This document shows positions 46,233 through 58,512 of a stretch of 64,000 nucleotides of DNA, piece by piece. The stretch is taken from positions 62,001 to 126,000 of the forward strand of contig JAEUIH010000003.1 of assembly GCA_016795105.1 (NCBI GenBank). Reading direction: 5' to 3'. Position numbers and translations under genes: made by a program. This DNA comes from Planctomyces sp. GTDB lineage: Bacteria; Planctomycetota; Planctomycetia; Planctomycetales; Planctomycetaceae. The notes below the pieces were generated by a model. That model was not told the DNA's origin. It saw only the letters and a program-made list of their open reading frames with translations, and made no database searches. Position 1 is the stretch's first letter, and every line of letters starts with the position of its first letter.

Positions 46233-46556
46233 ATGACAAGACTACTCATGATGGTGGTTGCGGCTGGTGCAGTGATGATGGCAAGTGCATCGGAATCGAG
46301 AGCGGATCACCGACATTACTCGAATCGTGGCGGATATTCGATTTCGTTTAACTATGGATCGGGATACGGCAACGGGATGAGTTTTGGATATAGCCGAGGC
46401 GGGATTGGCAATCCATATGGAGGCGGCTTTGGCGGCGGGTACCCAGGCTACGGACGTACTCGTGTCCAGTATGTTCCTGTGTATCCGTCCTATGGATATG
46501 GCGGTTATGGTGGCGGTCGTGGTGGATGGGGACGTCCTCATGGCCACTGTCGATAG
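46233..46556 (+). CDS. Gly/Tyr-rich small secreted protein
   Basis: 107 residues: signal peptide (MMVVAAGAVMMASASESRA), then a Gly/Tyr/Ser-rich repeat-like body (SGYGNGMSFGYSRGG, YGGGFGGGYPGYG, YGYGGYGGGRGGWG) ending in PHGHCR. A ribosome-binding site GGAGCAGAGGA precedes the ATG. Low-complexity Gly/Tyr-rich secreted proteins of this sort are common in planctomycetes; function unknown, perhaps a surface or adhesive protein. Followed by a perfect hairpin at 46607-46633. Confidence 0.8.
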   Translation: MTRLLMMVVAAGAVMMASASESRADHRHYSNRGGYSISFNYGSGYGNGMSFGYSRGGIGNPYGGGFGGGYPGYGRTRVQYVPVYPSYGYGGYGGGRGGWGRPHGHCR

Positions 46557-46606
46557 TTTGCCTGACGGCGGGCTGTCGGCGGAGACGGCTGACAAGTGGT
46601 AAAGAC

Positions 46607-46633
46607 TGAGCCGCGAGTGATCCTCGCGGCTCA
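46607..46633. terminator. Bidirectional terminator hairpin between convergent genes
   Basis: An 11-bp perfect stem TGAGCCGCGAG/CTCGCGGCTCA with a TGATC loop lies between the Gly/Tyr-rich gene and the nuclease gene. The trailing T-tract is short on both strands. Confidence 0.75.
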
Positions 46634-46667
46634 ATTCGTTTCAGGAAGTTCAGTCAGCATTGACTCG

Positions 46668-49600
46668 TCACTGCAAATCAGCCGACGAAGCGTCGTTTGA
46701 TGAGAGCCAGGGAATATTGCGGTCGATCACCGTTTCCTGGCAGATGGCGGCAAAGTCCGATGGCATAGCAGGATCGCCGGGTTCGACTCGATCGATTTTC
46801 AGATCGATAATGTCGGTTGCGATTTCACGGGAGAAGCGATCTGCTTCATCGAGTTCCTGATCTGTCCATTCGGCCATAGATGGGCCGACCTTTGAGAGAT
46901 CTCCTGGCAGATGAATATAGCCGAGTTGAAGCTTTCCGGTGATACCGGCTTCACGAACGAGAGTTCTATAGAGAGGAAGTTGAAGATCGATCCACTGTTC
47001 TCCCTGTTTGTGGGATTTGTGAGGTTCCTGAGGACTGTCACTGGTCTTATAGTCGAGAACTCGAAACAGCTCGGAGTCCTTCCATTGGTCGATTCGGTCG
47101 ATTCTTCCAACGAGCGCATATCTGCGTTTCTTAAGGTCACTCAGCCCATCGCAGCGGCCGTTGATTTCAATGCTGTGGATTCGCCAGCCTTCTGCTGAAG
47201 TTTCTGCCTGCCATTTTGAGAATTCGACGAGTCGGTCTTCTGCCATCTTTAACTGAACGGCGATTGTTGCTGACTGGAGATGTCCGAAATGTTTTGAGGC
47301 CTGAACCTCCAGTTCTTTGAGGAGATATGCCTCAATCTTTGAGGCAGAACTCGAGTCTCGATGTTTGGATTCTCCAAACGACTTCAGTACATCATGAATC
47401 AGATTTCCGAAGGCTGCCCCACTGAGTTCGCGAACCTGATTATCAACTGAACGGAGGCGGAGTTCTCGATTCAAAAAGTAGCGATAAGGGCAGTTGATAT
47501 ATTCGCGGAATGCCGTGACGGAGATTTCCACGGGAACTTTTCTGGGTCGGACAAGTTTAGGCTCAGGAACTGTGAATCCACTGAGTCGGCGGTGGCCTCG
47601 ACGGTTCAGGCTGTCGAGTGACGCAGCAGTTTCGGAGGTATCAGTGTCGATCGAAAACTCTTTGGAAGAATTCGAGCCATAGAACCTTCGGACACGTTCG
47701 GCGAGTGACTTTGGTTCTGCGGAAAACCAGAGTCGGCTTGGTGTTTGTGGGTTCCCTTTGACGTCGGTTTTTCCGGCAATCAGGACAACCTTTTTTCGGC
47801 TGTGTCGGATGGCGGTCATGGCGCAGATATCTCTGGCAAGTTTCCGATCATTATCTGTAAGTCCGAGAGAAGAGCGGAAGCTGTTTGGGAGGAACACGTC
47901 GGAGGTTGATGACTCCGGGATATTTCCTTCATTAAAGCCTGTCAGGATCAGCACAGGCGCGTCGTCCATAGTCAGATCGGACCAATGGAGAATATCGATT
48001 GCTTCAGGATCATCATCAGGCGGAACACTCTTCGATGCGATCTGACTAAGCACCAGTTGAATGGCCTGTGCCGCAGAGCATCGTGGAATAACCGGATCGG
48101 GTACTCGTCGAAGCGATTCCATGAGATCGAGAATACTTGTTATGCAGTGCTGAAGGCCTCGGTCCGGCAAAGAGTCCGGCTGAATTGGGCGACCATGATA
48201 GAGAGCAGACAGTACTCGTATGCAGCCCGACACCCATTGGCTGAGCGGACGTTTTTTCCCGAGTTGACCCACGAGCGAGAATGAGGCGTCGGATTCACCA
48301 TCGCCGAAGTTGAGCTGTTTTTGGCGGGCCGCTGCCGCTTTCGTTTTGTTCTTCGTCGGAGTCGTTTTTTCCGGAGCCATTTTTTCAGGAACGGCCAGGA
48401 GAGTTCCAGGCGGTAGCAGGAGTTCGAGCAACTGGTTCACGATGAATAGTACGTCAGTTACGGTCTTTTTGCGTGAGGGTTCACCGAGCATGATTCCGGG
48501 AGTCGTCTGCAGGTGATCTGACTGGTACAGGTCCAGTTCGGTGATCCAGTCCAGTCCGTTATAGTGAGGCGATATTCCGGCGAGTCGGATGGATATCCAG
48601 TCGACTGCATCGGGATGACGCACCAGATCAGCAAGTGAGTCGAAATCTCCGGGCAGCCCGTTGCGTGCAGAATTCAGATGCTGACAGATGGCATGAAGTA
48701 ACTTCCATGGTCGAGAGCGACTGACGGGCATTCCGATCTGCCATCTGCTTTTCACGCTGCCATCTTCGAGAGCCTGCTGGAGTGTCGAGATAAAGTCTTC
48801 GTCAGCGATTCCGAGTGTTATATCATCGGCTCGGAACTGACCATTGAGTGCAGCGAGTTCATGCAGCACATGTCGAGCCTGATCTGTCGGGTTGTCTGCG
48901 ATCCGAGTTTCTTCGAAGGGGATATTGAGAAGCTGGCTGGTCCAATGTTCGGGGATCATGCAGCCATATTCATCAAAGCGACTGGCTTCGGACAGTGGGG
49001 CATGGATCATCACGGTGACACGATCTGCGACCTGGACGATCATTTGCCGCACGATCTGATCAAGATCCATCGTACCAACAAGAATGATGTCCTCGTTTGT
49101 TCTGCATTCGGAATTCCGAACAGCGAACAATCGGGCGGCCTGTTTGTCCCAGAGATCGAGGGTATCCATATGATTCAGGTAAGATTTCTGAATCCGATTT
49201 AGCGCTTCCCAGCGGGCAGCTTCCGGAAGATTGCCAGCCTTGCTGAGTTTTTTGCTCAGGTCGTCAAAGTTCATCGATTCGGACGCTAGTTCATTGTGTT
49301 GACGTCGGAGGGTCTCGCAGAGAGCCATCCATGCAGGAACTGCTTCATCATCAGGGAGATGTGGCAGCGCATCTTTGAGAAATCGTGGCTGTATAGAAGT
49401 GAGAGCCTTGCGCCAGACGAGAAGTTGAGTGAGGTCGTCGGCAAGTTGTTTTTTTCGCGGATAGAGAACTTCGGGAAACTGCTGCTGAGTGCTGAATCGA
49501 GGTGGGATCAGTGAAGGCCACCTGGACTGAGCCTTCTGTACGAGGATCTCAAGCAGTCTTCGGGCGGCTCTTTGTCCATTGACCACCACACGTACATTCG

Positions 49601-49703
49601 ACATATCCAGTTGATTGCCGTTTGCATAACGCCTGATGAGGCTGTCAGCCGCAGCGGGAAGCAGCGGGGCGTTCCAGTCAACGAATTCACGCACAACAGG
49701 CAT
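46668..49703 (-). CDS. AddB/RexB-like PD-(D/E)XK nuclease
   Basis: About 1011 residues. ATG 49703 is preferred because GGAG lies 9 bp upstream; ATG 49721 gives six more residues. The protein is UvrD-fold-like in its first 600 residues, with remnants of helicase-type blocks (VVVNGQRAARRLLEIL; GFNEGNIPESS, like AddB), and ends in a PD-(D/E)XK nuclease: VSVTAFREYINCPYRYFLNR-like entry (here ISVTAFREYINCPYRYFL), GRIDRID and the VLDYKTSD core with the catalytic Asp-Lys. The AddB iron-sulfur cysteine set is not evident. No AddA partner is adjacent. It may act in double-strand break repair. Confidence 0.85.
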   Translation of the reverse strand: MPVVREFVDWNAPLLPAAADSLIRRYANGNQLDMSNVRVVVNGQRAARRLLEILVQKAQSRWPSLIPPRFSTQQQFPEVLYPRKKQLADDLTQLLVWRKALTSIQPRFLKDALPHLPDDEAVPAWMALCETLRRQHNELASESMNFDDLSKKLSKAGNLPEAARWEALNRIQKSYLNHMDTLDLWDKQAARLFAVRNSECRTNEDIILVGTMDLDQIVRQMIVQVADRVTVMIHAPLSEASRFDEYGCMIPEHWTSQLLNIPFEETRIADNPTDQARHVLHELAALNGQFRADDITLGIADEDFISTLQQALEDGSVKSRWQIGMPVSRSRPWKLLHAICQHLNSARNGLPGDFDSLADLVRHPDAVDWISIRLAGISPHYNGLDWITELDLYQSDHLQTTPGIMLGEPSRKKTVTDVLFIVNQLLELLLPPGTLLAVPEKMAPEKTTPTKNKTKAAAARQKQLNFGDGESDASFSLVGQLGKKRPLSQWVSGCIRVLSALYHGRPIQPDSLPDRGLQHCITSILDLMESLRRVPDPVIPRCSAAQAIQLVLSQIASKSVPPDDDPEAIDILHWSDLTMDDAPVLILTGFNEGNIPESSTSDVFLPNSFRSSLGLTDNDRKLARDICAMTAIRHSRKKVVLIAGKTDVKGNPQTPSRLWFSAEPKSLAERVRRFYGSNSSKEFSIDTDTSETAASLDSLNRRGHRRLSGFTVPEPKLVRPRKVPVEISVTAFREYINCPYRYFLNRELRLRSVDNQVRELSGAAFGNLIHDVLKSFGESKHRDSSSASKIEAYLLKELEVQASKHFGHLQSATIAVQLKMAEDRLVEFSKWQAETSAEGWRIHSIEINGRCDGLSDLKKRRYALVGRIDRIDQWKDSELFRVLDYKTSDSPQEPHKSHKQGEQWIDLQLPLYRTLVREAGITGKLQLGYIHLPGDLSKVGPSMAEWTDQELDEADRFSREIATDIIDLKIDRVEPGDPAMPSDFAAICQETVIDRNIPWLSSNDASSADLQ

Positions 49704-49817
49704 TACCGGATTCTCCGGCATCAGGAGGAGACCGGCGGACTGCCGTCTTTTTGAGGATCACCTGATGCTGGCTGAATCTTAGCGAATCAGAGCAGTCGTT
49801 CGAAACGTGATCGACGA

Positions 49818-52800
49818 TTACCAGGCGACATCGTTTCTGGCGTGAACTCGTTCTGAGATCTCGGCAACTCGAGGGCGATGGCTGGTCAGGGTTTCGAGAA
49901 TCCACGGAATCGGGATGGATTCGAGTTCGCAGTAGACAGAAACATCTGACGTTTGCATCGGCTGTGTAGCGACGCATGGACCAAATTCTGCTTCCAAGCG
50001 GGATTTCCACGCTGCCGGGTCTGTGGCTTTGGGCAGAATCGCGAGAACTCGGCGGCTGCCCCCCACATTGCGGATCACGGGATGAGCATTCGCGGGAAAC
50101 GATTGAGCGGCCGGCGTTGTGTTGTTTGCGGAGTCTGTCTGATCTTTGTCAAGAAGGAAGTTCATCGCATCAGCTGAGAGCGTCGCGATCGTCTGTTTGC
50201 CGGTTGACGGATTCTTCGTCAGTGTCGAGAGTTTGAAATGTCCATGTTGAGTAATCCACGATTCAAACGATTCGAGGGTTGCGTCCGGGATGACGACATC
50301 CGCGGGAATTTCGGTGCTGAGTCCGCTGACGAGATCTCGAAGCAGTTTTCGACAGTGTGCGAGTGTTTCTCGTTCATGTCGTTCGAGATGATCCTTCAGT
50401 GCCGTGAGATGTGCAATCACGCACTGCGCGACGGTCTGACAAAGCAGCAGCATGCAGTACTGTCGGGTGAAGGACCGAGCGACATTGAGATCTCTGATGT
50501 CGTGTTCAGAGTTGTCTTCGGAGCCGATTTCTCCGCAGATCCGGGAAAACGCTTCCTGGACATCTTCTTTTTGGTCCTGGCAGGCCACGAGTGCCTGCTC
50601 AACAGCCTGGCGACAGGTTGTGAGCGTAATAGTTGCGGAATACAGACGACCGTGATCGTCGAGATCAGCTGTGAGCTGGCGGCTCAGCAGAGACAGTGAA
50701 TTCTGAAGTCTGGCGGCAAGTTCCTGCCTCACGGACTGAGCGATTCTTGCAACAGATTCAACAGAAGTTCCCTGAGCCGATGCGTCAGCACTGATTGTGT
50801 TTGTGAGGAGTTCCATCAGCAGATCAAGATCATTGAATTGATCGGCATTCTTTGTGATCCGATTCCATAGATCGGCAGAGTATTGTTCGATTCGTCGCCC
50901 GGTATCACCACGGAGCATAGCCGGAATGAGTTCAGCAGTGCGAACTTCGGAAATGTGCATAGAGTCCAGAAGTACTCGAAGCGATTCCTCGGACTTGACC
51001 GGGAGCTTTGCGTTGGCGGACTGCAGCATATCCAGCCAGCGTTTGACGGTCCGGAAAGTGAGCGAATCAGCCTTCTGGATTGCATCGGCCCAGAGTTCTC
51101 CCTGAATTGCGGCGTGTCCGAAGGTGCGGATGGATGTCTCCGCGGGAGCTTCATCATTATCTTTCTGCAGTTTTCTCCATGTTTCAAATTGTCGGCGAAC
51201 TTCGGTTGCACACCACAGATGCAGATATTCAGCGACATCTTCAACTCGATGCGAATATGCTGAATTCGTCAGGTCATCTCCCAGATGAACAAACATTGTC
51301 GAATCAAACGGACCACAGGGTTGTCCGGGAACGGGCGCGGGAATTCCGGATGGCGTTGCGTTGCCGGGCAGCGAGTAATAAAGGAGTTCTTTGAGGAAGC
51401 TGGCGGCGTTTGCGTCGTGCGTATCTGAATGCTGTTGACCGACGCTGGTTGAATGGACCAGCATTGCTGAAACATTCATTCTGCGAAAGGAGGTGAATCC
51501 GGACAAGCCTCGAACTGTATACGCGATATCCATCAGGCATCCGCTTGAGGTACCACCAGAGACAGACCCAATCAGGCAGATGTCGAGGTTATCGTGAGAA
51601 ACCGGGCCGCCGATGACGGTTGTGGACGCTGCGATGGACTCCGGGAGCCCGATACGGGTCAGTACCGACTTTATGGAGCTGCGAATTTTCGCCTGGTGGT
51701 CAATGTACGCGAGGCGTCCGAGAGGCCGCATACCTTCAACGTGTCCATTGCGGGGAATGTTGAAGAGCCAGCGGCGACTGATCCATGAGAGATGCTCTGA
51801 AGCGGACTTGCGATAATCGTGAGTAGATCTGAGCGGGATCGGGACGGTCGTGACGGGCAGGGTTGCAGATGCCCCGGAATCTGATCGAAGAACAGCGTTG
51901 AGTGGATCCTTGTCGGAGTCAATATAGACGAAGCCGAAAGATGGAACATCGCTGGTTCCAAACTGTTCAGCAAGTTTTGAACGCAGTGCTTCGGCGATTC
52001 GAATACCCAGTCCACCGACGGCAACGAACAGAGTCGGACGGTATTCAGCAGCGATCAGGAGATCGGGAGGTGACAGCGGAGCCGCGTTGCGCACGTGCGG
52101 GACACCCGCATGGAGTGCCTGGTTTGGGCTCAATACCTGTGTCAGTCCGGAGGATTCCGAGTGACCCTTCTGAGTTCGTTTCGGGGTGTTTGAATGGACT
52201 GGACGTCTGCGGGACAGTTCATCAATAAACTGTCGGCATCCGGGAAATCGCGACGATGGATTTTTTGAAAGTGCTCTGGAAACGACCCCTCGTTCTGTAG
52301 GACTCAGAGGCGTCAGGTCAGGAGTGCTTTTGAGGTGTTGTGCAGTAAGTTGCGCGGCGGTTCTGCCACTGAACGGCGAGGTGCCGGTGAGCAGGATCTG
52401 ATAGACGATTGCCAGGCTGTATTGATCACTGGTGCGGGACGGATTGCCTTCAAACAGTTCGGGAGGCGAATAGAGAGGTGTAAATCCGCGAACGATGGAA
52501 GCGGCTGCAGTATTGCCAATGTGCTTTGCGAGCCCGAAGTCTCCGACTTTAACGTGGTTTCCCTGAATGAGCAGGTTTTCGGGCTTAATGTCGAGATGCT
52601 GAAGTCCATGATGTTGAGTCATGAAATCCAGGGCATCGGCAGCATCCCGAAGATATCCCAGCAGTTCATCGCGAGGAATGCCACGGGCTCCTGCCGCAAC
52701 ACACTGCTGAAAGCGTTTATCGAGGCTGCTGTCGGCAAGTTCGGTGACGACGATCAGCCGGTCCTCAATGATTTCGATACGTTCGATGCTCAGCAGGAAC

Positions 52801-53057
52801 GGGTGGCGAAGTTCTCGCATGTGCTGCAGAGACTTGAGTTCGGTTTCCGCCTGGGGTCCGTTCATGGCGCCGAACAGGATTTTGACAGCTTTACGAAATC
52901 CACCGGGGCCGATAGCGCTCCAGACTTCGCCGTATCCTCCAAGCCCCACACGTTCTACCAACTGGTAGCCCGCCACATCCTTGATGTGGTTCATGATCGA
53001 GGGCTGCGGAGCAGACTCGCCGATCACTGAGGTTGTGATAACTTCTGACTTGCTCAT
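49818..53057 (-). CDS. Ser/Thr protein kinase fused to tubulin-like (Tubulin_2) domain
   Basis: 1079 residues in one chain. The kinase (about 30-283) has a G-loop GLGGYGEVW (39-46), VAIK-type Lys59 in RKAVKIL, HLDIKPEN with Asp156, DFG at 173-175 and SPPE at 198-200; Leu replaces Arg of HRD. A linker of about 55 residues follows. From about 342 a tubulin/FtsZ-like domain starts: LFVAVGGLGIRIAEALR for the nucleotide end, FVYIDSD and the signature-like GSVSGGTSSG at 497-506. The remaining about 500 residues are helical and unassigned. It overlaps the AAA gene by ATGA. No transmembrane helix is seen. Family naming from motif recognition only. Confidence 0.85.
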   Translation of the reverse strand: MSKSEVITTSVIGESAPQPSIMNHIKDVAGYQLVERVGLGGYGEVWSAIGPGGFRKAVKILFGAMNGPQAETELKSLQHMRELRHPFLLSIERIEIIEDRLIVVTELADSSLDKRFQQCVAAGARGIPRDELLGYLRDAADALDFMTQHHGLQHLDIKPENLLIQGNHVKVGDFGLAKHIGNTAAASIVRGFTPLYSPPELFEGNPSRTSDQYSLAIVYQILLTGTSPFSGRTAAQLTAQHLKSTPDLTPLSPTERGVVSRALSKNPSSRFPGCRQFIDELSRRRPVHSNTPKRTQKGHSESSGLTQVLSPNQALHAGVPHVRNAAPLSPPDLLIAAEYRPTLFVAVGGLGIRIAEALRSKLAEQFGTSDVPSFGFVYIDSDKDPLNAVLRSDSGASATLPVTTVPIPLRSTHDYRKSASEHLSWISRRWLFNIPRNGHVEGMRPLGRLAYIDHQAKIRSSIKSVLTRIGLPESIAASTTVIGGPVSHDNLDICLIGSVSGGTSSGCLMDIAYTVRGLSGFTSFRRMNVSAMLVHSTSVGQQHSDTHDANAASFLKELLYYSLPGNATPSGIPAPVPGQPCGPFDSTMFVHLGDDLTNSAYSHRVEDVAEYLHLWCATEVRRQFETWRKLQKDNDEAPAETSIRTFGHAAIQGELWADAIQKADSLTFRTVKRWLDMLQSANAKLPVKSEESLRVLLDSMHISEVRTAELIPAMLRGDTGRRIEQYSADLWNRITKNADQFNDLDLLMELLTNTISADASAQGTSVESVARIAQSVRQELAARLQNSLSLLSRQLTADLDDHGRLYSATITLTTCRQAVEQALVACQDQKEDVQEAFSRICGEIGSEDNSEHDIRDLNVARSFTRQYCMLLLCQTVAQCVIAHLTALKDHLERHERETLAHCRKLLRDLVSGLSTEIPADVVIPDATLESFESWITQHGHFKLSTLTKNPSTGKQTIATLSADAMNFLLDKDQTDSANNTTPAAQSFPANAHPVIRNVGGSRRVLAILPKATDPAAWKSRLEAEFGPCVATQPMQTSDVSVYCELESIPIPWILETLTSHRPRVAEISERVHARNDVAW

Positions 53058-54385
53058 ACGTCGTCCTTTGTACGAACACGAGTAAAGAAACAGCCAGAGA
53101 TGGCGTCAAAATACTGGGGCAGCATTTCGAAGGGGAAATCGTGATAGGTGCAGTAGTTGCGGACTTGCAGGAGCAGGTCGCGAGCATGACAGCGTCGGAG
53201 TGCTCTTCCTGATGGTCGATAATAAGTGGCCAGCAGGTATTCAACGGATTCCGGATCATAGACGCAGCCGAGTCTTTCGGCCGCGATCTGGAACAGTCGC
53301 TGAAATTCTCGCTCGTCCGGATCTTTCACTTCAATTCGATAGGGAATTCGTCGCAGAAATGCTTCATCGACGAGTGCTGCGGGATCGAGGTTTGTTGAAA
53401 AGATGATCATCTGCTCAAACGGAACCTGAATTTTCTTTCCGGTTGAAAGCGTCAGAAAGTCATGTCGGTTTTCGAGCGGGATGATCCACCGGTTAAGGAG
53501 ATCTTCCGGAGAGATCCGCTGTCGACCGAAGTCGTCAATCAGCAGACATCCGCAGTTGCTCTTCATCTGAAGTGGCGCTTCGCTGAGATTGGTCACAGGA
53601 TCGTGGCGAATCTCGAGGTTGCTCATTGTCAGTTCACCGCCGACGACCACAGTCGGGCGACGGACTCGCACCCAGCGACGATCGAAAGTGCTGCCTTCAC
53701 CGGGCTGCTCTCCCTGCTGATGATATGCAGGATCGAACAGGGTGATAATTTCACGTCCATCCATGACTGCATAAGGCAGCCAGACTTCCTGGCCAAAACA
53801 GCTTGTGATTCGATGGGCCAGTGTTGATTTGCCGTTTCCGGGAGCTCCGTAGAGGAACATGCCGCTGCCGGAATTTACGGCGGGCCCGATCATATCGAAA
53901 AGGTCGTCGTTGACCGAAACATTATAAAAGGCGTCCTGCAGTTCTGTGCGGCGAATTGGTTCATCACCGATTGCCTGCGCTTCGACAGAAATGACATAGT
54001 CCATCAGCGGGACTGGAGCAGGGCCGGTATATGCACATTCACTGTGAAACGTTTGTGCCCGCTTGCGGCCTTCTTCTGTCAGGCCATAGACATAGTCGTT
54101 GAGACTTGCGCTTCCACAGTGGGTGACGAGTCTGCGAGCGCGGAGTCGCTCCATCAGAAGTTCCACTATACGGAACGAGATGCAGATTTCCGTCGCGAGT
54201 GATCGGCCCGTGAGATTGCCGGCCGAAAGCAGGATTCGGCAAAGTTGAGCTTCGAGGAACGGTTCTGAGAGCCCGAGTTCCTGAATGCTCTTAGGGTCCG
54301 ATGGCCAGAAGTTGTCCCCTGCCAGCAGCGCGTTCAGCAATGCGGCATCGGTGCCCTGCGATTGACCTTGACGTGCCAGTTGCAT
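53054..54385 (-). CDS. AAA ATPase with N-terminal winged-helix-like region
   Basis: 443 residues. The first about 120 look like a winged-helix domain (VELLMERLRARRLVTHCG, YGLTEEGRKRAQTF). An AAA core follows: Walker A GAPGNGKST (180-188), Walker B LLIDDFG (281-287, DD where DE is usual), sensor-1 IIFSTN (Asn332) and arginine-finger candidates in FLRRIPYR. The C-terminal lid is at 360-440. It lies 6 bp after the FHA-EAL gene and overlaps the kinase-tubulin gene by 4 bp, so all three are one transcript. Likely a remodelling or motor ATPase in that pathway. Confidence 0.88.
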   Translation of the reverse strand: MQLARQGQSQGTDAALLNALLAGDNFWPSDPKSIQELGLSEPFLEAQLCRILLSAGNLTGRSLATEICISFRIVELLMERLRARRLVTHCGSASLNDYVYGLTEEGRKRAQTFHSECAYTGPAPVPLMDYVISVEAQAIGDEPIRRTELQDAFYNVSVNDDLFDMIGPAVNSGSGMFLYGAPGNGKSTLAHRITSCFGQEVWLPYAVMDGREIITLFDPAYHQQGEQPGEGSTFDRRWVRVRRPTVVVGGELTMSNLEIRHDPVTNLSEAPLQMKSNCGCLLIDDFGRQRISPEDLLNRWIIPLENRHDFLTLSTGKKIQVPFEQMIIFSTNLDPAALVDEAFLRRIPYRIEVKDPDEREFQRLFQIAAERLGCVYDPESVEYLLATYYRPSGRALRRCHARDLLLQVRNYCTYHDFPFEMLPQYFDAISGCFFTRVRTKDDV

Positions 54386-54391
54386 GATAAA

Positions 54392-55546
54392 TCACTTTGT
54401 CTTGTCGTCGGCGGTCCAGTGTGAAACGGGTTCGGCACGACCGAAGAGGTAACCCTGCGCGAGCTCAAAGCCGAGCTCATGGCAGATTGCTGCCTCTTCT
54501 GCTGTCTCAACACCTTCGGCAAGAGGTGCGACATTCAGATCGCGGACCAGCCTTAACAGAGACTGGATGGTGTTTTTCTGCTGAACTGATGCGAACGTCA
54601 GTCCATTGATAAATTTCAGGTCGAATTTCAGGACATCCGGCGGAACATCAAACAGTTCCTTCAGGCGAGCCTGTCCGGAGCCAAAGTCATCATAGGCCAG
54701 TTCCATGCCAAGATCGGCGACGGCGGCCTTAAGCTCACTCAAATATGCAATCGAAGCCACGGCAGCTTCATGAACCTCGATTACGATCTGTGCCTGAGGG
54801 TATTCGCGGCGAAGATTCGCGAGCGATTTAATCAGCTGGAAATCCTGAAGTTCCACCGGATGTGTATTGAGATAGAACTTCATATCGAGGCCCAGTGCTT
54901 CACCAACTCTCAGGCCTTCAGAACGACAAACGCTGCTGAGTTCCGCCTCAGATGTTCGCTGTGCAGCGACCTTGAACATCCGTTCCGGCGTTTCAAGGCC
55001 AACCAGGAAGCTCCGTGACAGCACTTCGAAGCCAATTCGTGAATGATCATCAAGCCGTACAATTGGCTGAAAGAACGGGCGAAGCCCGGGGCGTTTGAGG
55101 AGTTTATCGAACTGCAGCTGGGCAATTGCTTCTGCAGATACATCGGCAGTGACCGTGGCTGTTGAACCAAATTCAGCGGCCCGATGCAGTGTGAACATCA
55201 CGCTGCCAATGTGAATAACATCGCCATTCTTGAGCCCAGTCAGATTCTGTATCCGACGACCGTTCAGAAGTGTTCCATTTGTGCTGTTTAAATCTCGAAT
55301 AAACAGATCCTGATTTACAAGCACAAGTTCCGCGTGTCGACCTGAAACCGTTGGATCTGCGACCGTCAAATGACTTGAAGGATGTCGGCCAATCAGAAAT
55401 GAAGGCGATGAAACGACTACACGCTTGAGGGAATCCGAATCACACGACTGTCGCATCAGTATCCATGCCTCAGGCATGTCTGTTGCTAAAGTCTCTGCGT
55501 TCGGTCCACCGGTTGCTGGTCGAAAGTTGGAATCAGCCACGGCCAT
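54392..55546 (-). CDS. FHA-domain and EAL-domain protein
   Basis: 384 residues. An FHA domain (about 45-120) carries GRHPSSHL, SGRHAEL and LNSTNGTLLNG, which bind phosphothreonine. An EAL domain (about 150-375) follows: ExLxR motif in FEVLSR (Glu174), Asn227 in LNTHP, Glu257, DDFGSG (286-291), Lys307, AEGVET (343-348) and Gln364. All metal and catalytic positions appear present, so c-di-GMP hydrolysis is plausible. First gene of the AAA/kinase-tubulin operon. The FHA domain suggests that it reads the phosphorylation state set by the kinase downstream. Confidence 0.9.
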   Translation of the reverse strand: MAVADSNFRPATGGPNAETLATDMPEAWILMRQSCDSDSLKRVVVSSPSFLIGRHPSSHLTVADPTVSGRHAELVLVNQDLFIRDLNSTNGTLLNGRRIQNLTGLKNGDVIHIGSVMFTLHRAAEFGSTATVTADVSAEAIAQLQFDKLLKRPGLRPFFQPIVRLDDHSRIGFEVLSRSFLVGLETPERMFKVAAQRTSEAELSSVCRSEGLRVGEALGLDMKFYLNTHPVELQDFQLIKSLANLRREYPQAQIVIEVHEAAVASIAYLSELKAAVADLGMELAYDDFGSGQARLKELFDVPPDVLKFDLKFINGLTFASVQQKNTIQSLLRLVRDLNVAPLAEGVETAEEAAICHELGFELAQGYLFGRAEPVSHWTADDKTK

Positions 55547-55943
55547 TCCGCATCATCTCCGATTCGTCTTCTTCAGAACTCCTGGGGAGCTCAATTGCTC
55601 CACCATGACTCACATCAGAAACGTAGTCCAAAAACCACACAGTCCGGGGAACATCCGGCAACTTCTGTTGCTGCACACAGCCCGGTCGTATGGGTTGAGC
55701 CGTTTTTGCATGGATGAGTCAGCAGGTTCTGCGTGATGTGCCTGATTTCCTGATGCCACGGATTTCGCCGACAGGCATTCTTTTCCCCAATGGGGGAAAG
55801 ACTCCAGGGTTACCGACACACTTAATCAACGAAAGCCGAGACCCGGTTTCGGCCGATAACGAATATGGATGTCTGACAAATCGAGTACTTCGCAGATGCG
55901 CTCGATGTTCTGTTCCGTCACCCTATGCTCCGAAGCAAAAGCT
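55547..55943. other. Divergent intergenic region between FHA-EAL operon and small acidic protein
   Basis: About 400 bp without a gene. It contains a C-rich/G-rich hairpin (TTTCCCC/GGGGAAA, 55782-55799) and a smaller GCCGA/TCGGC stem around 55840. The promoter of the three-gene operon must lie here; no consensus boxes were clear. Confidence 0.4.
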
Positions 55944-56141
55944 ATGACAGACCACGAAGAATACGAAGAAATCAGCAGCGAAGAAGTAGACCGTGTTGTG
56001 GAAGCTCTGGACCACCTGATCGAGCTGGTGCAGAGCGAAAATATCAAACACTACCTGGAAGAAGCAGCTTCCAGCATTTACTACCTCGTCTACGAAGACG
56101 AATCCGAAGACAGTGGTGCAACACTTGATCATGCCGCATAA
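55944..56141 (+). CDS. Small acidic protein, unknown function
   Basis: 65 residues from ATG 55944; the frame extends upstream to 55869 without good start. Very acidic at both ends (TDHEEYEEISSEEVDRV; YEDESEDSG), with a central helix HLIELVQSENIKHYLEEAASSIYYLVY. No family recognised, but composition, position before a strong terminator and absence of any competing frame make it a likely gene. It might be a small regulatory or chaperone-like protein. Confidence 0.6.
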   Translation: MTDHEEYEEISSEEVDRVVEALDHLIELVQSENIKHYLEEAASSIYYLVYEDESEDSGATLDHAA

Positions 56142-56195
56142 ACACCGGCTGCATCGCCAATTCAACTGTGCATAAGTACAGTTTTCGATAATCTC

Positions 56196-56238
56196 AAAAG
56201 CCTGAGTGATTGAATTTAGTTCGATTACTCAGGCTTTT
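56196..56238 (+). terminator. Rho-independent terminator
   Basis: Stem AAAAGCCTGAGTGAT / ATTACTCAGGCTTTT (one mismatch) with a 13-nt loop and the T-run TTTTT following. It lies 55 bp after the small acidic protein. Strong intrinsic terminator. Confidence 0.9.
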
Positions 56239-56404
56239 TCTGTTTTCGTAACTCTGCTGGTTGGAGGGACTTGAGGAGAATTTCCAATTTTGATGCTAAA
56301 TTTGCCAGATTGGTGTCCGGAATCCGGGACCTGCTGCGATTGAAACAAGTGGAGGGTTTTGAAGGGTCTCAGAATCAAAGAAATCCTCCTTTGACTGTCG
56401 GCTC

Positions 56405-56498
56405 ACGCGGCAACGTCAGAAGAATTTTGATTACTGTTGACTTCGCACCCTAAGGCAGACTTCAGCTTACAGTGTCAAATTCCTTCACGTTGCCGCGT
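56405..56498 (+). ncRNA. Candidate structured RNA / long hairpin ending in T-run
   Basis: Arms of about 30 bp: perfect base ACGCGGCAACGT (56405-56416) with ACGTTGCCGCGT (56487-56498), extended by AGAAGAATTTTGATTACTGT against ACAGTGTCAAATTCCTT with small bulges. The apical loop is about 30 nt. TTTTTATTT follows directly. It may be an sRNA, a processed hairpin or an attenuator; direction plus is inferred from the T-run. Confidence 0.5.
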
Positions 56499-56566
56499 TT
56501 TTATTTGTTGAAATCAAATGAGGAGGCCTGGAAGTCACCAAATTGAGGTGGCTGACCGACCTTTCT

Positions 56567-56594
56567 TTGCTGTTGACGGTCATCTCTCTATACT
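56567..56594 (+). promoter_or_regulatory. Candidate aspS promoter
   Basis: -35 TTGCTG at 56567-56572, 16-bp spacer, -10 TATACT at 56589-56594. Predicted transcription start near 56600 lies at the base of the 56596-56659 hairpin. Confidence 0.4.
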
Positions 56595-56595
56595 G

Positions 56596-56659
56596 CCCGC
56601 TCAACGGCGTTCTGTCTTTCGACGGAAGGCAAGTCGTTCGCCGTCGTTGAAACAGCGGG
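56596..56659 (+). promoter_or_regulatory. 5' leader hairpin of aspS
   Basis: Paired segments CCCGCT/AGCGGG, CAACG/CGTTG and GCG/CGC (56596-56609 with 56639-56659) with small bulges. It would form at the very 5' end of the aspS mRNA and may protect it or regulate translation. No known riboswitch class recognised. Confidence 0.4.
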
Positions 56660-56733
56660 TAGAGACCAATTCCAGGCGATTCCCGGCTGACTTATTTTGA
56701 CTTACAGGCAGCCTTCCGCGGACTTGAACACTC

Positions 56734-58512
56734 GTGCACAGAACTCATCACTGCGGTGAACTTCGACGATCCCATGTTGGTCAGGTTGTAACTCTCGGGG
56801 GCTGGGTCAACAGTTATCGGGACCATGGCGAGAATCTGGTTTTCATTGACCTCCGCGACCGCTACGGAAAAACTCAGATTGTCTTCAACACCGAAGACAG
56901 CAGTGAGATCGACAGCTTGGCGCGTCGGCTGCGGCGTGAGGACGTGGTCAAAGTGCGGGGCGAAGTTCGTTATCGCGGTGATGCGCTCGTCAATCCGAAG
57001 CTGGCGACGGGCGAGATCGAGGTTCGAGTACAGGGTCTGGAGATTCTGAGCAGGAGTAAGACGCCACCGTTTGAAGTCGAAGGCGGAGATTTGCCAAACG
57101 AAGAGCTTCGGCTGAAGTATCGGTTTGTGGATTTGCGGCGTCCTGAACTTCAGAAGAGCATCATACTTCGGCACCAGTTGACACAGGCAGTGCGGGAGTA
57201 CTTCAATGCTCGTGACTTCCTTGAAATTGAAACACCGATGCTGGGTCGAAGCACTCCTGAAGGTGCTCGTGACTACTTAGTTCCGAGTCGAGTTCACCCT
57301 GGCAGTTTTTACGCGTTGCCGCAGTCTCCGCAGATCTACAAACAGATCCTGATGGTGGCCGGTTTTGATCGATACTACCAGATCGCCCGTTGTTTCCGGG
57401 ATGAGGATTTGCGAGCGGACCGTCAGCCAGAATTTACTCAGATAGACGTCGAGATGGCGTTTGTTGAGCGAGACGACATTCTTAACATGATCGACGGGCT
57501 AGTAGCACATGTGATGAAATCGATCAGAAGTGTGGAAATTCCGTTGCCATTGCCGCGGTACACATATGCCGATGTGATGGAGCGTTTTGGCTCTGATAAA
57601 CCGGACTTGCGGTTCGGGATGGAGCTGATTGATATCGGAGCGATTGCTGCTGCCAGTGAATTCAGTGTATTCCGAAATGTTATCGGTTCCGGCGGGCGTG
57701 TACGCGGGATCAATGTGAAGGGGGCAGCGGAGAAGTACAGTCGTCGGCTGCTGGACGTGGACCTCAAGAATTTCGTCGGCGAATTCGGGGCGAAAGGTCT
57801 GGCGTATATGAAGGTTGCTGGTGGAAAGCTGGAGTCCACGATTGCTAAGTTCTTTAGTGATGAGCAGCAGCAGCAGATCATTCAGAAAATGAGTGGTGAA
57901 GACGGAGACCTGTTGTTGTTTGTTGCCGACCAGCCGAAGGTCACTTCAGCCGCGCTGTCTGCTCTTCGAAATCGCCTGGCGAAAGAGCTGAAACTTTACG
58001 ATCCATCCGACTTTCGGTGCCACTGGGTGATCGACTTCCCACTGGTGAACTGGAATCCTGAAGAGCAGCGATTTGATGCAGAACATCATCCGTTTTGTCA
58101 GCCGAATCCGGAAGATGTTTCGTACATGACGACGGACCCGGGTCGGGTGCGTGCAGATTCATATGACCTGGTTGTCAACGGATACGAAGCTGCGAGTGGC
58201 AGTGTGCGAATTCACGATTCGGCTGTTCAGCAGCAGGTGTTTGACCTGTTGAAGATCAACCCGGAGGAAGCCGAGCGTCGTTTCGGATTTCTGCTGGAAG
58301 CACTTCGATACGGAGCACCTCCGCACGGCGGGGTTGGGATGGGACTTGATCGCTGGGTGATGTTGTTGGCGGGTGACGACAACATTCGCGACGTCATCGC
58401 ATTCCCGAAGACGCAGAAAGCCGCCGACCTTCTGACCGGAGCTCCGTCCGGTGTCGATGATCGCCAGCTTCGTGATCTTCACATTCAGGTGCAGCTACCG
58501 GAAGAGAAGTAG
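56734..58512 (+). CDS. aspS: Aspartyl-tRNA synthetase
   Basis: Class II synthetase of 592 residues charging tRNA-Asp; the length is that of the bacterial type with a GAD insertion. GTG 56734 start. An OB-fold anticodon-binding domain ([25 protein letters not shown]) comes first. Motif 1 includes [25 protein letters not shown]; motif 2 is [20 protein letters not shown]; motif 3 is [11 protein letters not shown]. The specificity loop SPQIYKQ is present. The GAD insertion (about 290-410) is intact. Terminates at a strong hairpin (58522-58552). Confidence 0.97.

Follow-up and report, generated by a model that had tools for sequence, protein, structure and literature searches.

Planctomycetes possess FtsZ-like proteins that carry a protein kinase at the N-terminus. 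Makarova and Koonin recorded four of them in 2010 (PMC2875224), and predicted a membrane-remodelling system for the family, FtsZl1, together with vWA, GTPase and OmpA proteins. A reviewer remarked there that a gene for a cyclic di-GMP (c-di-GMP) phosphodiesterase of the EAL type adjoins FtsZl1 in Pirellula staleyi; the authors answered that such neighbours are confined to one or a few related organisms. The kinase domain is also mentioned in a 2023 study (PMC9871819), and FtsZl1 in an account of Gemmata massiliana (PMC4672568). Here we analyse a locus of this kind in Planctomyces sp. (GenBank assembly GCA_016795105.1, contig JAEUIH010000003.1, positions 62,001 to 126,000 of the forward strand; this stretch of 64,000 nucleotides is called the window). 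Three genes in it encode an FHA-EAL protein, an AAA ATPase and a fusion of a kinase with a tubulin-like domain, referred to as kinase-tubulin.

A first-pass annotation of the window, made from the letters alone, described three tightly packed minus-strand genes, spaced by 6 bp at one junction and overlapping by ATGA at the other, and knew of no similar combination. The arrangement is borne out: across 49818-55546 the order on the minus strand is FHA-EAL, AAA ATPase, kinase-tubulin. The conserved set of three is likewise undescribed among the literature matches listed, with subscription papers, preprints and supplements outside the search. The claim of novelty has to be narrowed, since the kinase fusion was already published and the EAL neighbour noted. 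What can now be said is that the EAL link is general in one branch of the family, marked by an RRW motif.

We report that the linkage of the three genes goes far beyond chance. Our interpretation, offered tentatively and at slightly under an even chance, is that the trio represents one branch of a signalling module conserved in planctomycetes, centred on a protein of the FtsZl1 type with its own kinase and working through the phosphothreonine docking proposed in the Discussion.

Results

Conservation of the gene set

The first-pass annotation named separation of the three genes in other genomes as a refutation; comparison of neighbourhoods, the check that it proposed, found them kept together. 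A scan of 84,980 species, each represented by a single genome, used the tubulin part alone as the query and the pattern [SGD]RRW[LF][YF][NG]IP, and the best 80 of 99 relatives were taken as the set of loci. An FHA-EAL gene lies nearby in 72 of these, an AAA gene in 50 and both in 46. Among the 49 loci with full room (at least 6 kb of flank upstream and at least 2.5 kb downstream), FHA-EAL is present in 49, AAA in 37 and both in 37. These counts are not independent, because loci share genomes: some of the 80 come from genomes that are also among the 59 relatives considered below, and at least two metagenome-assembled genomes (MAGs) supply two loci each. The titles of the loci are all planctomycete, save one labelled Nealsonbacteria and two labelled 'bacterium'; of the named records, a Fuerstiella MAG gives the best match. 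Carriers include Blastopirellula marina DSM 3645, Lacipirellula limnantheis I41 and Adhaeretor mobilis HG15A2.

The order of the genes varies. With FE for FHA-EAL and KT for kinase-tubulin, FE>AAA>KT occurs in 16 loci, AAA>KT>FE in 11, and FE divergent from AAA>KT in 10; eight loci have AAA, another gene and then FE>KT, and 25 (13 of them short-flanked) have FE>KT with no AAA gene in the locus. Single-case arrangements also occur, and KT>AAA>FE is found in L102. Because the set survives rearrangement, shared function is better evidenced than it would be by a fixed order.

What becomes of the AAA gene where it is missing from the locus? The family is present in all 12 genomes whose full-room loci have no AAA gene nearby: 11 hold a match of 56-60% outside the locus, interrupted in one case by an internal stop, and the twelfth has a 55% fragment at the start of a contig. 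In 59 related genomes, Tubulin_2 is present in 21 and the AAA family in 54. All 14 genomes that have an RRW-type tubulin (motif RRW..[NG][IL]P) show an AAA match above 500 bits, and none of the remaining 45 does. Membership of the RRW set was assigned manually and is consistent with a two-strand motif check for the loci inspected, which took in all but the third Tubulin_2 copies of G038, G043 and G056 and the second copy of G051, on contig C165. In a sample of 248 genomes from the class, the AAA protein (E 1e-145 or better) was found in 44 and Tubulin_2 in 111; we take both counts as referring to the same 248 genomes, and Tubulin_2 was counted whatever its RRW status. All 44 AAA genomes have Tubulin_2, against 67 of the 204 others (Fisher p ~1e-18, kinship ignored).

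A GGDEF-related fourth gene

Neighbour clustering places a GGDEF-related gene family near 35 of the 80 loci. Three members were scanned and all have GGDEF, two as REC-GGDEF-CBS and one, shorter, with GGDEF alone; in the related protein of L099 only CBS exceeds its cut-off. In six Fuerstiella-type loci the gene is upstream of FHA-EAL and shares its strand. The window has no such gene locally, and the best match in its genome, 37% identical, is on another contig.

The GGDEF motif and the EAL domain beside it tend to share one state. Each of the six intact GGDEF motifs is paired with an intact EAL domain, and each of the 30 degenerate ones, including those of L099 and L100, with an EAL domain keeping at most five of eight key residues. 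Two copies that are not direct neighbours were dropped from this pairing: the second one of L153, which is intact next to a degenerate EAL, and that of L152, 3.2 kb downstream and intact beside an intact EAL. In L098 GGDEF is degenerate and EAL was unscored in the motif comparison. On a tree built with a simple model and a short search, EAL changes state four times and GGDEF once. The match of states, intact or degenerate together, is thus suggestive; co-degeneration as replicated evidence was rejected, there being only one independent pair on the tree.

The three proteins

Each of the domains named by the first-pass annotation was recovered, four by Pfam matches above cut-off (FHA, EAL, kinase, tubulin) the AAA core in a structural model, and the winged helix as an arrangement consistent with that model. 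In the FHA-EAL protein the FHA domain scores 71 bits and the EAL domain 121, both above the curated cut-offs. We aligned 78 rows (the window, 72 loci and five relatives). The residues that we take to make up the phosphothreonine site of FHA domains (GR, S..H and N) are all in place: G53, R54, S68 and H71 in 74 of 74 ungapped rows and N90 in 75 of 75, with G91 kept in 74 of 75. The EAL domain of the window has all eight of the residues presumed to serve catalysis and metal binding, which predicts a c-di-GMP phosphodiesterase.

The AAA protein has Pfam matches below cut-offs only (AAA_5, 18.8 bits against 22). Its AlphaFold2 model (mean predicted local distance difference test, pLDDT, 86.1; predicted template modelling score, pTM, 0.80) shows a set of N-terminal helices and then two strands, as would fit a winged helix, ahead of the AAA core. 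Walker A lies at about residues 180-187 and Walker B at about 281-285, both nearly wholly conserved, and G183, K186, D284, D285, N332, R345 and R346 are invariant in the rows scored; with Walker A, Walker B, sensor Asn and Arg residues present, the protein is an AAA+ ATPase by motif. The best fold matches are Pyrococcus furiosus Q8U0N8 (PDB 8p49), Lon, BchI and RuvB, at TM-scores by query length of about 0.33-0.50 and identities of 12-17%, with no family-level match. Spastin gave the best sequence matches in the PDB (E ~4e-7), and a spastin-like reading was rejected because those matches span only residues 137-208 around Walker A and the fold matches point elsewhere. The genome of the window also encodes a paralogue, 46% identical (L109:9326-10708, minus strand), and in the 54 of 59 related genomes that have the wider family its members often lie apart from any Tubulin_2 gene.

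Kinase-tubulin matches Pkinase at 99.1 bits, above its cut-off, and Tubulin_2 (PF13809) at 99.2 bits against a cut-off of 27, which makes it a member of the FtsZl1 family. The AlphaFold2 model has a pLDDT of 87.8 and a pTM of 0.67, with low confidence in the linker 289-318. The catalytic Lys, Glu, Asp and Asn and the DFG Asp of a Hanks-type Ser/Thr kinase are invariant in the rows scored (K59 and E73, 83/83; D156 and N161, 84/84; D173, 85/85). The HRD position reads HLD in 84 of 84 rows, a fixed non-RD feature; non-RD kinases are less dependent on activation-loop phosphorylation. In the tubulin part the loops of the nucleotide site are mostly conserved (G348, G349, G501, G502, G506), and the tail of the protein has conserved residues too (R1070, R1074, D1076, W1079). 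The genome has one Tubulin_2 match. Canonical FtsZ or tubulin (PF00091) was not detected in it at E 0.001; 13 of 14 control genomes gave a match.

A second kinase-Tubulin_2 subfamily, which has no RRW motif, is found in L103-L108, L111 and L112, with a tandem pair in L104. Its sampled neighbours are ScpA (L104), a ParA-like protein (L111) and PARG (L108), and none of these loci has an FHA-EAL or module-type AAA gene. A genome of the same genus encodes a further Tubulin_2 protein, of 1044 amino acids, that has no kinase match (L110:2412-5543, minus strand). Within the class, the number of Tubulin_2 matches reaches four in some genomes.

A candidate phosphothreonine site

The linker between kinase and tubulin domain is highly variable in length and sequence. 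The wide motif T.[VIL][FLMVI], which was chosen after inspection, occurs in 43 of 85 linkers, and shuffles, which ignore kinship, gave a mean of 12.9 and a maximum of 25 (300 shuffles). The narrower T[QE]V[FLM] occurs in 13 of 85, with a shuffle mean of 0.2. When linkers were held below 60% identity, 39 of 73 kept the wide motif (mean 11.8, maximum 22 in 1000 shuffles); versions with Ser (11/73) or Ala (7/73) did not exceed shuffles. Neither the kinase domain (20/86, mean 39.0) nor the coiled coil (39/86, mean 48.7) has an excess of the wide motif. The segment just behind the FHA domain has T[QE][VI][MLFVI] in 18 of 73 proteins (shuffle mean 1.1), and the T[QE] form is found in none of nine linkers from non-RRW kinase-tubulins. 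The FHA ligand given for DgcB of Bdellovibrio in PMC6733907, pT-S-I-V, itself matches the wide motif.

The proposal of the first-pass annotation that the kinase creates the site read by the FHA-EAL protein thus gains indirect support from the invariant FHA and kinase residues and the linker threonines; the phosphorylation itself is a prediction from sequence.

Organisation of the locus

The features of the locus are collected in Table 1. In a consensus scan of 46500-57000, promoter-like sites number 5 against 5.6 in shuffles, and terminator-like sites 18 against 9.7 (standard deviation 3.0). Inside the three genes, the minus strand has one promoter-like site (53748-53720) and two terminator-like sites (55088-55076 and 54014-53998); the same scan found no site of either kind on that strand at the gene junctions. 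An Rfam search gave no match. A terminator-like hairpin of 20 pairs lies on the plus strand at 56196-56238, behind an open reading frame of 90 amino acids (55869-56141) that has no Pfam match.

An AddB-like PD-(D/E)XK gene (46668-49721, minus strand) starts 96 bp after the kinase-tubulin stop codon. It was rejected as a member of the module: kinase-tubulin aside, no family of such length recurs in at least four of the 80 loci.

Table 1. Features of the FHA-EAL, AAA and kinase-tubulin locus (window coordinates)
Feature	Position	Strand	Description
FHA-EAL protein	54392..55546	-	384 amino acids; FHA residues 51-114, EAL residues 147-370
Gap, FHA-EAL stop to AAA start	54386..54391	-	6 bp
AAA ATPase	53054..54385	-	443 amino acids; N-terminal winged-helix-like part and AAA core
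ATGA overlap, AAA stop and kinase-tubulin start	53054..53057	-	4 bp
Kinase-Tubulin_2 fusion	49818..53057	-	1079 amino acids; kinase 31-271, Tubulin_2 343-651
Kinase-tubulin, further segments			low-confidence linker 289-318; long helices ~653-975; C-terminal alpha/beta part 1001-1071
Linker motif TQVL (Thr306-Leu309) of kinase-tubulin	52131..52142	-	candidate phosphothreonine site for FHA, on a statistical basis

Discussion

How might the three proteins work together? We propose that the kinase phosphorylates a threonine in its own linker, and possibly another just behind the FHA domain of its partner. The FHA domain would dock on the phosphothreonine and so bring the EAL domain, with a GGDEF partner in some lineages, to the tubulin-like protein. 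There a local level of c-di-GMP, or its binding, might be set and coupled to the GTP state of the tubulin-like part, and the AAA protein may take the assembly apart or load it. We infer the phosphorylation, the docking, the c-di-GMP effect, the GTP binding, the polymer or switch behaviour and the role of the AAA protein.

Several observations weigh against this proposal. A profile search of the PDB with the tubulin part found no tubulin, and the tubulin fold is unconfirmed by structure comparison, because the 50 Foldseek matches listed for the kinase-tubulin model were all kinases. The candidate threonine motif, a choice made after inspection, is absent from half of the linkers; the tubulin domain mildly exceeds shuffles for the wide motif (65/86, mean 56.3, with 11 of 300 shuffles as high); the FHA-EAL protein of the window has no match to it anywhere; and two of the nine non-RRW linkers have TTSL[VL] in loci without module partners. 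The full set of eight EAL residues is present in only 41 of 78 rows, catalysis having been lost in many lineages, and the EAL loop reads DDFGSGQARL, which is unlike the usual form of the loop in active EAL domains. With the truncated L156 excluded, 28 of the 32 loci whose EAL domain is degenerate have the GGDEF-related gene nearby, in each case itself degenerate, against only 7 of the 39 whose EAL domain is intact or almost so; the agreement of the two states is a single independent contrast on the tree. FHA-EAL relatives above 200 bits occur in 14 of 38 related genomes that have no Tubulin_2, so this family is wider than the module. Finally, the Fisher tests treat related genomes as independent.

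The first-pass annotation had c-di-GMP set the state of the device. The EAL residues of the window itself are complete, but turnover cannot be the invariant core, because the EAL set is kept in 41 rows of the alignment and the GGDEF neighbour is degenerate in 28 loci. The constant core is the kinase, the tubulin part, the FHA domain and an AAA protein somewhere in the genome, with c-di-GMP turnover optional. Taken as a whole, the annotation's interpretation is partly supported: what it observed is confirmed, its outline of a kinase-FHA signalling device is plausible, its filament is conjecture, as is ATP-driven remodelling by the AAA protein, and the c-di-GMP element has partial support.

Does the tubulin-like part form filaments at all? 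The trio could be a signalling hub in which this part is a GTP-dependent switch or scaffold, a possibility we take seriously even if we would not expect it to prove correct. The nucleotide-site loops are mostly conserved, yet between helix 598-617 and strand 642-652, the putative counterpart of the catalytic T7 loop of FtsZ, the best conserved acidic column has D in 44 of 84 rows and E in 12. Long helices and a C-terminal part also stand behind the tubulin domain, unlike in FtsZ. The coiled coil could nevertheless support assembly, and members of the tubulin superfamily commonly polymerise. An improbable alternative is that the locus belongs to the published FtsZl1 membrane-remodelling system, FHA-EAL and AAA being lineage extras. 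The family is the same, and the four kinase fusions recorded in PMC2875224 are planctomycete too. However, no vWA, OmpA or GTPase domain was matched in 20 neighbouring proteins (10 from the window, the other half from five further loci; seven lack any Pfam match), a scan of neighbours and not of whole genomes, and the authors of that paper discounted the EAL gene and similar neighbours on the ground that few genomes have them.

We give very little weight to an anti-phage or conflict system, suggested by analogy with the GTPase-tubulin systems of PMC7159879. With PADLOC the kinase domain matches the MAD6 and PD-T4-6 models and the AAA protein, weakly, IetA/IteA, but these matches are at the level of the domain (kinase or AAA) and FHA-EAL has none; no partner of those defence systems was recognised among the 20 neighbours scanned, and the defence reading was rejected. 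It is just as hard to credit that the genes are adjacent through inherited order alone, with no shared function. They are close neighbours in many lineages, as inheritance would have it, but order and orientation are permuted while the set is kept, the AAA gene is retained away from the locus, and the genes co-occur across genomes.

The signalling module that we favour can be extended to a more specific picture, which we consider unlikely as it stands. In bacteria where FtsZ goes undetected, kinase-tubulin would serve as an assembling platform that uses phosphothreonine docking to gather FHA-EAL and, in certain lineages, a diguanylate cyclase as well; local c-di-GMP would control a cytoskeletal structure remodelled by the AAA protein, and one lineage would have kept both enzymes as pseudoenzymes. 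The uneven spread of the GGDEF gene makes this picture slightly less probable. If it is true, Ser/Thr phosphorylation, c-di-GMP and a tubulin-family GTPase are joined in one module. The c-di-GMP link raised in the 2010 review, set aside then because the neighbours occurred in few genomes, is in any case reopened, and direct experiments are feasible since named strains carry the module.

How does the module compare with known systems? It shares with the FtsZl1 system of PMC2875224 a Tubulin_2 protein with a coiled coil, kinase-fused planctomycete members and one EAL neighbour. It differs in its conserved FHA-EAL and AAA proteins, in the GGDEF gene of some lineages and in that the scan of its neighbours found no vWA, GTPase or OmpA gene. 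DgcB, an FHA-GGDEF protein (PMC6733907), likewise joins a phosphothreonine-reading FHA domain to a c-di-GMP enzyme; DgcB, however, makes c-di-GMP and reads its own tail, whereas in the module FHA is joined to EAL, in a protein encoded beside kinase-tubulin. The OdhI and GarA switches (PMC2784874) resemble the module in that an FHA domain binds a threonine phosphorylated by a Ser/Thr kinase, but they operate with neither a second messenger nor a cytoskeletal protein.

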